From an uncultured Bacteroidales bacterium (lineage in GTDB: Bacteria; Bacteroidota; Bacteroidia; Bacteroidales; WCHB1-69), in assembly GCA_905233585.1 (NCBI GenBank), contig CAJOFD010000006.1, positions 1-64,000 on the forward strand: 64,000 bases of DNA, in the 5' to 3' direction. Each line of letters starts with the position of its first letter. Position 1 is the first letter of the stretch. Below the pieces are notes generated by a model, which was given only the letters and a program-made list of their open reading frames with translations, was not told where the DNA came from and ran no database searches. Of this stretch, positions 9,438 to 16,036 are shown one piece after another. The translations under genes were made by a program, and so were the position numbers.

Positions 9438-10481
9438 TTAATTTCTTGCAAAGAATAACCCTGCACCATAAAGAGGCACATTGGTTATTCTCTCTTGTTC
9501 CCGATATGCACTCATCGAAAAACGAACGGCACGCATCGCTTCTTTGTTTTGAAGTATGGTTTTTAAGGATTGGGATTGAAGATTCTCTTTCGCTTTCACT
9601 TCAATAGGAACAACTTGTATATCTTGTTGAATAATAAAATCTATCTCAAGACTACTTGTTTCCCGACTATAATAGAACAATGATTGGTCTATACTTGCCG
9701 CAAGTTGGGTGCAAACGTAGTTTTCGGTAAACATACCCTTTCCCTCCTCCATATTGTTAGGTAACAAAAGCATAGCAGATGGAGTATTTGTCAAGGCTCC
9801 CAATAAGCCGACATCAAGCAGATATAGTTTGAAAGCAGCAAAATCCTCATAGATTTTCAATGGAATAGCATCATGGGCAGAGATAAATGCGGCAACCGCA
9901 CTCGGCATACCTCCTACAAAATAATACTCACGTAACAATTGTATCAATGTTGAATGAAAACCTTGAAGGATATTCCAATCTTTAAGCAGCAAGATGTCTG
10001 CCATCTTATCATTTCCTTTCGCTCTTAAAAATTCATCAAACGACATAGGATACATTTTAATCAAATCCACTTTGCCAACAGGAAACGATTCTCCATGACG
10101 CATGGCAATGCCAAGTAACGAACCCGCTACACAAATATAATATTCTGGAGCATTCTCACAAAAATACTTCAGAGACGATAAGCCTCGCTGAAGTTCTTGT
10201 ATCTCATCAAGGATAATCAAGTTTTTTTTCGGAAGAATCACCTCTTTTGTTATAGCACTAATAGTAAGAATAATCCTTTCTGTATCATAGTTCTCTATGA
10301 ACAAATCCTTTACAATTGTATTATTATCACAATTAATATATGCAACATTCTTATAATATGTCTTTCCGAATTGTTTTAGAATATATGTTTTACCTACCTG
10401 ACGTGCCCCCGAGAGAATCAATGGTTTTCGGAACAAAGAATCTTTCCATGTAATTAACTCTTTTACAATATTTCTATACAT
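9438..10481 (-). CDS. AAA ATPase / DUF4143 protein with a large internal deletion
   Basis: 347 aa, against about 400-440 for the family and 442 for the paralogue at 14.0 kb. The N-terminal AAA_14 domain is intact: Walker A GARQVGKT at 25-32 and Walker B LIILDEIQE at about 88-96, with the AGSLLG sensor at 119-124. After the GGMPSAV motif (190-196) the protein jumps directly to a PLKIYEDFAAFKLYLLDVGLLG segment, whereas relatives have about 85 residues between these landmarks. The C-terminal DUF4143 part with IDFIIQ and VPIEVKAKE (PD-(D/E)xK-like residues) remains. The deletion is in frame at about residue 205. The function of this family is unsettled; the copy may be non-functional. Confidence 0.85.
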   Translation of the reverse strand: MYRNIVKELITWKDSLFRKPLILSGARQVGKTYILKQFGKTYYKNVAYINCDNNTIVKDLFIENYDTERIILTISAITKEVILPKKNLIILDEIQELQRGLSSLKYFCENAPEYYICVAGSLLGIAMRHGESFPVGKVDLIKMYPMSFDEFLRAKGNDKMADILLLKDWNILQGFHSTLIQLLREYYFVGGMPSAVAAFISAHDAIPLKIYEDFAAFKLYLLDVGLLGALTNTPSAMLLLPNNMEEGKGMFTENYVCTQLAASIDQSLFYYSRETSSLEIDFIIQQDIQVVPIEVKAKENLQSQSLKTILQNKEAMRAVRFSMSAYREQERITNVPLYGAGLFFARN

Positions 10482-14025: not shown

Positions 14026-15354
14026 TCAGATTGTAGAAGAAGGGAAAAGATTACCTATAGCATAAAGAGGATAAATATCAACATCCGCTAATTGTGCAAA
14101 ATTCTCCATAGATGTACGGACCCCCCTTGCAATTTGTTTGAGTTGCATAAACATACGCATACTTTTCATCCCCCCCTTTGCTCCAGCCTTTACCTCTATA
14201 GGACAAACAATATTATTCCGTTCTATTAAATAATCGACTTCAGCAACAGCATTTTTTTCTTCCCTACGCCAATAAAACAACGCTGCTGGCAAGAAACAAG
14301 ATTGTGCCTTAATGATTTCCAATCCGACAAACACCTCTGCTAAAACACCTCTATTTATAATATCCATATCGGAAGCAAGAAGTATATTGGCAACATCTAA
14401 ATGCAATAAACGTTGCATAATACCAGTATCAAACAAAAACATTTTTCTGTATTTTTCATTCATCTCAGCCCCAAGCGGAATTCCATTGCCTGATGTATGA
14501 GTTACGGGAATTATCAACCCTGCCATACAAAGCATATTTACAGCCTCTTTGATAACATCGATCCGAAATTCTCTATCTACATGAGAATAAACAAACTTAC
14601 CTGTATTTTGTTCTGCTACGGCATAGAGTGCCTTTTGTAACAAAATAGGATTAGCACGCTTGCGATACTTTTTAAAATCATCTGTATATGAAACTATTAA
14701 TGTATCCAACACTTGTTGGCAGTCTCGTATATTTTGTGTTTCCACATAAGTGGCAATCACTTCCGGCATACCGCCAAGCAATAAAAATTGTCGTAACAAT
14801 TGTTGGGCTTTTTCATGAATAGGTTGCGACAATGGATATTGAGGAGAAGCATTTTTGATGGCTTTACACAAAGAAGCATTGCCTGTTGCCTGCAAAAACT
14901 CATTGAAACAAAATGGATACATAAATATAGATTGTACACGCCCGACTCCAAAAGAAGGCAGTTCCGCCAAGGTAAACTCAAGTAAAGAACCCGCTGCCAC
15001 CACATGCAAACTAGGATATTTTTCATAAAAATATCTCAACATATTGATAGCCTCCGGACAAGCCTGTATTTCATCTAAAAACAAGAGCGTTTTTTTCTCA
15101 ACTATCGGAATATTCATCAATACAGACAAATGCTCTGCAATCTGCTGTGGAGACAAGCCCTGCTGAAATAAGACATGAAAATCGTAGTGCTCATTCAAAT
15201 CAATTTCTACGTAATATTCAAATTGTTTGGCGAGGTGGCGAATAGCGTACGTCTTCCCCACTTGCCTTGCCCCTCTTATTAATAGCGGTTTATGATGCAA
15301 TTGGTTTTTCCATTGTATTAATACCTTGTCTATTTCACGTTCTATATACTCCAT
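14026..15354 (-). CDS. AAA ATPase with DUF4143 domain
   Basis: 442 aa, full family length. AAA_14 domain: Walker A GARQVGKT at 28-35, Walker B LLFLDEIQA at about 90-98, and AGSLLEF at 121-127. The GGMPEVI motif follows at about 194-200, then the middle DUF4143 region, and a C-terminal nuclease-like segment with AEVDYLIE and CPIEVKAGAKGG. The role of these abundant ATPases is unknown; suggestions from their distribution include mobile or defence functions, which I cannot test here. It has a very good promoter (15378-15408), and a 33-bp tandem repeat lies just upstream of that promoter. It is a paralogue of the shortened gene at 9.4 kb. Confidence 0.93.
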   Translation of the reverse strand: MEYIEREIDKVLIQWKNQLHHKPLLIRGARQVGKTYAIRHLAKQFEYYVEIDLNEHYDFHVLFQQGLSPQQIAEHLSVLMNIPIVEKKTLLFLDEIQACPEAINMLRYFYEKYPSLHVVAAGSLLEFTLAELPSFGVGRVQSIFMYPFCFNEFLQATGNASLCKAIKNASPQYPLSQPIHEKAQQLLRQFLLLGGMPEVIATYVETQNIRDCQQVLDTLIVSYTDDFKKYRKRANPILLQKALYAVAEQNTGKFVYSHVDREFRIDVIKEAVNMLCMAGLIIPVTHTSGNGIPLGAEMNEKYRKMFLFDTGIMQRLLHLDVANILLASDMDIINRGVLAEVFVGLEIIKAQSCFLPAALFYWRREEKNAVAEVDYLIERNNIVCPIEVKAGAKGGMKSMRMFMQLKQIARGVRTSMENFAQLADVDIYPLYAIGNLFPSSTI

Positions 15355-15425: not shown

Positions 15426-15510
15426 CGTAAAAATCCAAACATAAAACATGTCAAAAAACGTAAAAATCCAAACATAAAACATGTCAAAAAACGTAAAAAT
15501 CCAAACATAA
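15426..15510. repeat. 33-bp direct tandem repeat, 2.6 copies
   Basis: Identical units begin at 15426, 15459 and 15492; the last is cut off after about 19 bases. Each unit contains a CATGT half that forms ACATGT, and an A6 stretch. There are no spacers, so it is not a CRISPR array. The block lies directly upstream of the -33 box of the ATPase promoter and just after the HTH gene, which suggests an operator array, though a simple replication slip is possible. Confidence 0.9.
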
Positions 15511-15555
15511 GAGTAAAATTCTCCTATGGCAAACCACTCTCGCATGTACCATTGG

Positions 15556-15783
15556 TCAGTCTTGGATTTTGCATTTCAGATTGGCGGAATACAAGGCAAA
15601 AAAATCATAATCCAGCACCTTAGAAACACGATAAAGCAACTCTGTATCAATACTATACGAATTAAACATACGATAACAAGCCATACGACTAATATTCAGT
15701 TTGTTAGCCAGCCACGACACACCGCATTCTTGTCTTTGCAATTCATTGTATATTGCCTTACCTATATCTATATGTTGGTCCAT
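15556..15783 (-). CDS. Small helix-turn-helix protein
   Basis: 75 aa from the ATG at 15783. The segment from about 21 to 60 (VSWLANKLNISRMACYRMF, then DTELLYRVSKVLDYDFF) has the Cro/CI-type HTH pattern: helix, turn, recognition helix, then a third helix. Such proteins bind DNA as dimers and often repress nearby genes. It has no fused effector domain and no obvious toxin partner. Upstream, on the same strand, lies a large dyad ending in a terminator-like hairpin (15807-15947); downstream lie the 33-bp repeats and the ATPase promoter. A role in controlling the ATPase gene is inference. Confidence 0.75.
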   Translation of the reverse strand: MDQHIDIGKAIYNELQRQECGVSWLANKLNISRMACYRMFNSYSIDTELLYRVSKVLDYDFFALYSANLKCKIQD

Positions 15784-15806: not shown

Positions 15807-15840
15807 AAAAAAACCGTGAACTTTCTGTCGAAGTTCAAGG
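15807..15840 (-). terminator. Intrinsic terminator upstream of HTH gene
   Basis: On the minus strand CCTTGAACTT (15840-15831) pairs with AAGTTCACGG (15823-15814), with one mismatch and a 7-base loop, followed by seven T (15813-15807). Its 5' arm is also part of the larger dyad at 15829-15947, so the two structures exclude each other. Confidence 0.75.
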
Positions 15841-15947
15841 TTTCTGGACACACCTATCTATAAAACAAGAAAGCCCACGGTATTCCCATGAGCGTTTCTG
15901 CTTATCTTGCCTATAGATAGTCAAATTTGTCCAGAATTTGAACTTCG
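15829..15947 (-). ncRNA. Long dyad: candidate structured leader or small RNA
   Basis: Read on the minus strand, the arm 15947-15912 pairs with 15862-15829 in three uninterrupted blocks of 10, 9 and 9 bp (CGAAGTTCAA, TTCTGGACA, CTATCTATA and complements). The stem continues inward with a GCAAGATAAGC/GCTTTCTTG block and a CTCATGG/CCGTGGG tip that needs G-U pairs, which favours RNA of this strand. It lies between the glycosyltransferase stop (16037) and the HTH start (15783). It could be an attenuator leader, a free-standing small RNA with a terminator, or a MITE-like remnant; I saw no target-site duplication. Confidence 0.55.
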
Positions 15948-16036
15948 CAATAAAGCAAAAATCGCTATTTTGTTATATCTATATTAAAACTATCGTATCA
16001 TATTTTCTTTTACCATTTGCAAAAATACATTTTTTA

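Follow-up and report, generated by a model that had tools for sequence, protein, structure and literature searches.

The window (the whole 64,000-nt stretch of DNA analysed, from an uncultured Bacteroidales bacterium) encodes a small HTH gene on its minus strand, preceded by a structured leader element and a putative promoter. The features are as follows:

16027-16020, minus strand: putative promoter -7 element TATTTTTG (TAnnTTTG), 51 nt 5' of P0; based on the sequence and on family-wide enrichment of the motif
15970-15807, minus strand: whole leader element, a member of a leader-RNA family without an Rfam match
15952-15968, minus strand: P0, a short 5' hairpin with an AGCG/TGCT core; paired in 97.9% of cells, with G-C and G-U variants
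15938-15947, minus strand: P1 5' strand CGAAGTTCAA, partner 15829-15838; double-sided changes at six of seven tested P1 pairs
15922-15940, minus strand: S1 hairpin CAAATT/AATTTG, whose loop CTGGACA contains the KL 5' strand; compensatory change, cognate strands better than swapped
15929-15934, minus strand: KL 5' strand CTGGAC, partner 15844-15849; hypervariable, yet complementary in nearly all copies
15912-15920, minus strand: P2 5' strand CTATCTATA, partner 15854-15862; based on the fold of the window
15873-15893, minus strand: P3, apical hairpin GCTCATGG/CCGTGGGC, the predicted antiterminator; paired in 99.8% of cells
15881-15869, minus strand: 5' strand of terminator helix T (ACCGTGGGCTTTC; written ACCGUGGGCUUUC with its partner), the strand common to P3 and T; 12-bp helix with compensatory pairs
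15838-15855, minus strand: S2 hairpin AGGT/ACCT, whose loop contains the KL 3' strand GTCCAG (15849-15844); nearly invariant, and predicted to persist in the terminator fold
15829-15838, minus strand: P1 3' strand TTGAACTTCG, which doubles as the 5' arm of a local terminator proposed earlier; based on fold and covariation
15813-15825, minus strand: tail, the 3' strand of helix T (GAAAGTTCACGGT; paired form GAAAGUUCACGGU), directly 5' of the U-run; based on covariation and folding
15807-15813, minus strand: U-run of seven T, the expected 3' end of a terminated leader; based on the sequence
15556-15783, minus strand: small HTH_3 gene of 75 aa (ORF; Pfam HTH_3, 4.4e-05), the predicted regulated gene

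An earlier note, made from the sequence alone, proposed that the arms 15947-15912 and 15862-15829 pair. They do, in a long stem of three stacked helices (CGAAGTTCAA/TTGAACTTCG, TCTGGACA/TGTCCAGA and CTATCTATA/TATAGATAG; about 27-28 bp). All other sequence features named in the note are also present: the local hairpin CCTTGAACTT/AAAGTTCACGG followed by seven T (15813-15807), the HTH gene shortly after this T-run (ATG at 15783, 23 nt 3' of it) and the promoter element. The note argued from G-U pairs for an RNA role on the minus strand, and folding energies agree. The minus-strand RNA 15960-15800 has a predicted energy of -58.7 kcal/mol (z = -6.9; none of 200 shuffles as good), compared with -44.6 kcal/mol (z = -5.7) for the plus strand of the same region. 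Thus, the minus strand is favoured as the RNA strand.

Just 3' of the HTH gene, three tandem 38-nt units (ATGTTTGGATTTTTACGTTTTTTGACATGTTTT-like) occupy 15426-15512 of the minus strand. Two seemingly paralogous ATP-binding proteins with a GARQVGKTY motif (AAA/DUF4143 type by eye) are encoded at 9438-10481 and 14026-15354, and one of these genes adjoins the HTH gene.

Relatives of the leader and their genomic context

BLAST with the 256-nt leader as query recovered one strong relative and about 25 diverged copies, mostly of the structured part, from genomes of the same family. A weak match in the same genome (C54:682-745) was set aside, as it spans the AT-rich leader only. A pattern search with the apical sequence found at least 116 stretches; among the matches listed, all come from MAGs with Bacteroidales, Bacteroidia, Bacteroidetes or Ca. 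Colimorpha in the title, chiefly of rumen and gut origin. Covariance model R1 was built on 58 sequences that share less than 80% identity; it has matches in 88 of 148 relatives and recovers 13 copies from this genome. Model R2, built on 43 mostly diverged copies, finds 27 copies in this genome, and one more precedes an HTH gene (L243), giving about 28. With R2, 81 of 198 sampled Bacteroidales genomes proved to carry copies, as did 30 of 247 genomes in a phylum-wide sample, with copies in orders other than Bacteroidales as well. The earlier note knew of no RNA family with this pattern, and Rfam 15 indeed contains no family that matches the element in the window region, in 14 loci (12 of them diverged copies from this genome) or in class-level copies.

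The copy nearest to that of the window (L070) is 98.2% identical over the element, compared with 82% for the HTH gene (74% as protein) and 90% for the upstream gene. One contig (L118) carries two tandem copies 2.5 kb apart (at 1012 and 3475), each before its own gene.

Being multi-copy, palindromic and intergenic, the element could be taken for a mobile palindrome dispersed through the genome, such as the MITE-like remnant that the earlier note gave as an alternative. However, the 27 copies of this genome have a mean identity of 44%, and 2.8% of pairs reach 80%. These are not near-identical dispersed copies, and thus a simple MITE is refuted. The compensatory changes described below and the fixed orientation of the copies relative to genes also argue against mobility, as does the lack of matches in phages and plasmids (by BLAST) and in viral contigs (by pattern scan). 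We give this explanation almost no weight.

The motif TAnnTTTG is enriched 60-105 nt 5' of P0, where it occurs in 90 of 137 copies, compared with 27 for the opposite strand and about 8 for shuffled sequence. The stretch from this motif to P0 is 54% A and poor in ATG (48 versus 90 expected before the switch, in 90 leaders); one short ATG run in the stretch of the window is not shared as a family feature. This depletion makes a leader peptide unlikely. Attenuation of the trp type, which also uses an exclusive antiterminator and terminator, was rejected on the same basis, with no conserved short ORF across the 90 leaders.

According to a simple gene caller, the downstream gene is on the same strand in 132 of 145 copies and the upstream gene in 99 of 143. 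The first count is probably too low because the caller misses small genes, including the HTH gene of the window. A same-strand ORF begins within 320 nt in 124 of 132 copies, at a median of 49.5 nt 3' of the U-run. In this genome genes closely follow all copies, and an ORF was found on the expected side in 26 of 27, a permissive test given that the other side scores 14 of 27. Comparison among copies thus establishes, at the level of sequence, a position between promoter motif and same-strand gene, as expected of an attenuator, and we conclude that the copies are leaders.

An ordinary terminator of the upstream gene would suit those loci, the window included, where that gene is on the same strand. 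However, it points the opposite way in 44 of 143 cases, the promoter motif is situated between the upstream gene and the element, and a plain terminator leaves the conserved exclusive fold (below) unexplained. We therefore regard this function as highly improbable. The terminated leader of about 200 nt could also be a small regulatory RNA acting in trans, with the downstream gene read through or transcribed from its own promoter. Such an RNA would have its own promoter and terminator, as the element appears to, and small RNAs are known in Bacteroides (PMC7366714). The same-strand gene that follows nearly every copy at short distance weighs against this possibility, and a plain small RNA would have no use for a second, conserved fold in which the terminator is undone. 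It is accordingly a reading that we consider improbable, if less so than an upstream-gene terminator.

In six loci (L012, L014, L015, L022, L035 and L038) a second conserved motif, TTTGTGA..AAGCGGAAACGGTT..AACCGATTGA..TTACAAACATAAA, with complementary ends, occurs between the U-run and the start codon of secreted-protein genes. At another locus (L171, 1719-1753) a DUF805b RNA (RF02914; 39.9 bits, above gathering) is situated shortly 3' of the element and 5' of the start codon of a lipoprotein-like gene.

Two mutually exclusive folds

The copies have a common architecture: hairpin P0 at the 5' end, followed by a closed fold made up of P1, hypervariable helix KL, P2 and the apical P3, and then a tail. 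As the earlier note had anticipated for a functional RNA, the homologues are not identical and retain pairing through many compensatory changes. Across P0, P1, KL and P3, 96.1% of cells are paired, with 214 double changes versus 58 in shuffles, and pairing drops to 35-43% when the strands are slid. Cognate KL strands pair at -7.0 kcal/mol, versus -2.4 kcal/mol when swapped. P2 was not scored column by column because its length varies in relatives.

Two small hairpins, S1 and S2, each enclose one KL strand. S1 shows a compensatory change (CAAAUU/AAUUUG in the window versus GAAAU/AUUUC in most copies), and its cognate strands were better than swapped ones. S2 is less certain: apart from an exchange of U-A for C-G at one pair in six sequences it is nearly invariant, and its cognate strands were not better than swapped strands in the energy test because it hardly varies. 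Were S1, S2 and KL all present at once, the core would be a four-way junction with kissing loops, although the helices may instead form a nested long stem.

Helix T, of 12-13 bp, forms between the 3' arm of P3 and the tail, which precedes the U-run. This helix is paired in 95.3% of cells over 12 bp, and in the most diverged copies it is altered in concert on both sides. Cognate tails outpair swapped ones in both the 43 diverged and the 58 core copies (0 of 2000 permutations as good). The closing position is A-T in 52 copies, T-A in 51, G-T in 3 and A-A in none, with mismatches in a minority (A-C in 18 and T-T in 12) that count against the switch; the next position is C-G in 132, T-A in 3 and C-T in 1. 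The GC-rich helix T is followed directly by the U-run, as in intrinsic terminators.

P3 and T share 15880-15873 and are thus mutually exclusive, and both are conserved by covariation, as expected of an attenuator whose alternative helix uses a terminator strand. The P3 5' arm and the tail, rivals for this one strand, co-vary at an A/G position (P = 0.001, by a statistic that ignores relatedness). Comparison of the copies thus demonstrates both predicted folds and their exclusivity.

When the 3' part is folded alone, the terminator forms in 58 of 58 sequences (mean -25.2 kcal/mol, versus -14.2 kcal/mol for P3 alone). With the 5' half included, 56 of 58 minimum-energy folds contain P3, and T can be imposed only at a cost of about 12 kcal/mol. 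Given this difference, closure of the 5' half onto the 3' half is predicted to decide the outcome of the switch. At equilibrium the terminator is less stable than the closed fold by about 12 kcal/mol, so termination would need kinetics or a factor.

The interpretation given in the earlier note is supported in part. The results favour its attenuator-like leader with two exclusive folds, its promoter at TATTTTTG and a role on this strand. The kind of mechanism was right, whereas the terminator needs correcting: the conserved one joins 15881-15869 to 15825-15813 and does not use the P1 arm (15840-15831). The local hairpin at 15840-15814, which the note took to be the terminator, is a weaker alternative that is patchy across the family. 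It has an energy of -10.9 kcal/mol in the window. Among relatives its mean is -8.1 kcal/mol and it forms a good fold in 21 of 58 representatives, compared with a mean of -15.9 kcal/mol for the helix of P3 arm and tail, which is strong in 56 of 58.

Predicted regulation, downstream genes and known systems

We predict, with a probability of about 0.82, that the element is a cis-acting transcription attenuator belonging to a large, uncatalogued family of Bacteroidota 5' leader RNAs. Transcription would start just 3' of TATTTTTG and proceed through the A-rich stretch, poor in start codons, and P0 into the switch. In the first fold the 5' half would close on the 3' half (P1, KL, P2 and P3), so that the 3' arm of P3 is held and RNA polymerase reads into the gene. 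In the second, this arm would pair with the tail to form an intrinsic terminator with a long loop that retains S2. The terminator would beat P3 alone if the 5' half were kept open, and would lose if it closed. We infer that termination and read-through take place in cells. A signal would act on the region of S1, S2, P1 and P2; candidates are a protein (for example, an antitermination factor), a small molecule and a trans-acting RNA.

The genes following the element are varied. Of the 27 R2 copies in this genome, 16 precede genes for exported or lipoprotein-like proteins (judged by their N-termini), 8 precede small HTH genes (9 when L243 is included) and 3 precede others. The genome encodes 11 small HTH paralogues (the gene of the window and ten more); the element is present in 9 and absent in one (L241), and the remaining paralogue (L244) is truncated by a contig end. 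The link to HTH genes drawn in the earlier note therefore holds for 9 of 10 assessable paralogues, although the targets extend far beyond HTH genes. At one locus (L245; G000:C44:61 and C44:1722) a pair of very similar small HTH genes is separated by 1.7 kb, the second with the element and the first truncated upstream by the contig end.

Defence genes, among them restriction-modification genes, also follow copies of the element, as do genes for SusC-like receptors and ECF sigma factors. In the wider set, with 111 downstream proteins, Pfam identified ResIII or SNF2 helicases (9), MmeI/N6 methylases (6-8), PLD (6) and HTH_3 (4); NCBIfam identified a phospholipase-D antiphage family in 7, and PADLOC methylases in up to 10. 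In a set from outside Bacteroidales (21 loci, one of them Bacteroidales), 11 of 21 encode a SusC-type TonB-dependent receptor, 2 a sigma-70 family protein and 1 an N6/N4 methylase. The SusC-type receptor genes outside Bacteroidales are about 200-580 nt from the element, and at seven loci (L231, L232, L239, L266, L267, L268 and L275) the spacing of about 200-490 nt is longer than in Bacteroidales. Throughout Bacteroidota, the leader probably decides whether polymerase reads on into a gene for an exported protein, a small regulator, the uptake of nutrients or defence against phages.

If so, a whole phylum, whose members live in the gut and in the environment, would possess a widespread cis-regulatory RNA that reaches about 28 copies in one genome and has a clear two-state fold open to testing. 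Its targets would be costly genes of the cell border (defence, surface and secreted proteins, TonB-dependent receptors and small regulators), and the signal, once found, would show how they are switched, perhaps together. The conserved pairs specify exact mutations for testing the mechanism. More tentatively, and in our view doubtful, the family could be an ancient signal-sensing class, with a four-way junction and kissing S1 and S2 loops, through which defence, exported and nutrient-uptake proteins and small DNA-binding regulators across Bacteroidota are switched on or off together in response to a single common factor or metabolite.

Processive antitermination RNAs (HK022 put, Bacillus EAR and LoaP leaders) are structured leader RNAs that overcome termination in surface or acquired operons. 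The element could be of this type, modifying RNA polymerase to carry it past this terminator and those further downstream. It is likewise a structured leader (for LoaP leader RNAs, see PMC12691694), many of its targets are long defence or surface genes, and its structured core exceeds the needs of a simple switch. However, the competing terminator strand is within the element itself, and in many cases the target is one short gene, as with the 75-aa HTH gene. We consider this explanation unlikely, although it is the strongest competitor of the attenuator.

Riboswitches and protein-binding attenuators with a terminator platform resemble the element in that a structured 5' domain competes with a terminator for one strand 5' of a gene. 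The element differs in matching no aptamer family known to Rfam 15, and its targets (defence, exported proteins, HTH, SusC and ECF sigma genes) fit no single metabolite. The kind of mechanism is known, while the family, its architecture and its set of genes are new, to judge from Rfam and from searches of open papers, in which no earlier description was found. Flavo-1, Bacteroidales-1, Bacteroides-1 and 6S-Flavo (PMC2864571) are likewise conserved structured RNAs of this phylum, and their models gave no match to the window or its relatives at E <= 1. Fremin and Bhatt (2021) report HTH_XRE as the commonest domain directly downstream of candidate RNAs (PMC8040213), and thus partial earlier detection is possible. 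The main text of that paper was found to describe no such family, second fold or mechanism. The sugar-responsive roc mRNA leader of Bacteroides thetaiotaomicron also controls a surface-protein gene (PMC10294740); at 54 nt, it is too short to be this element.
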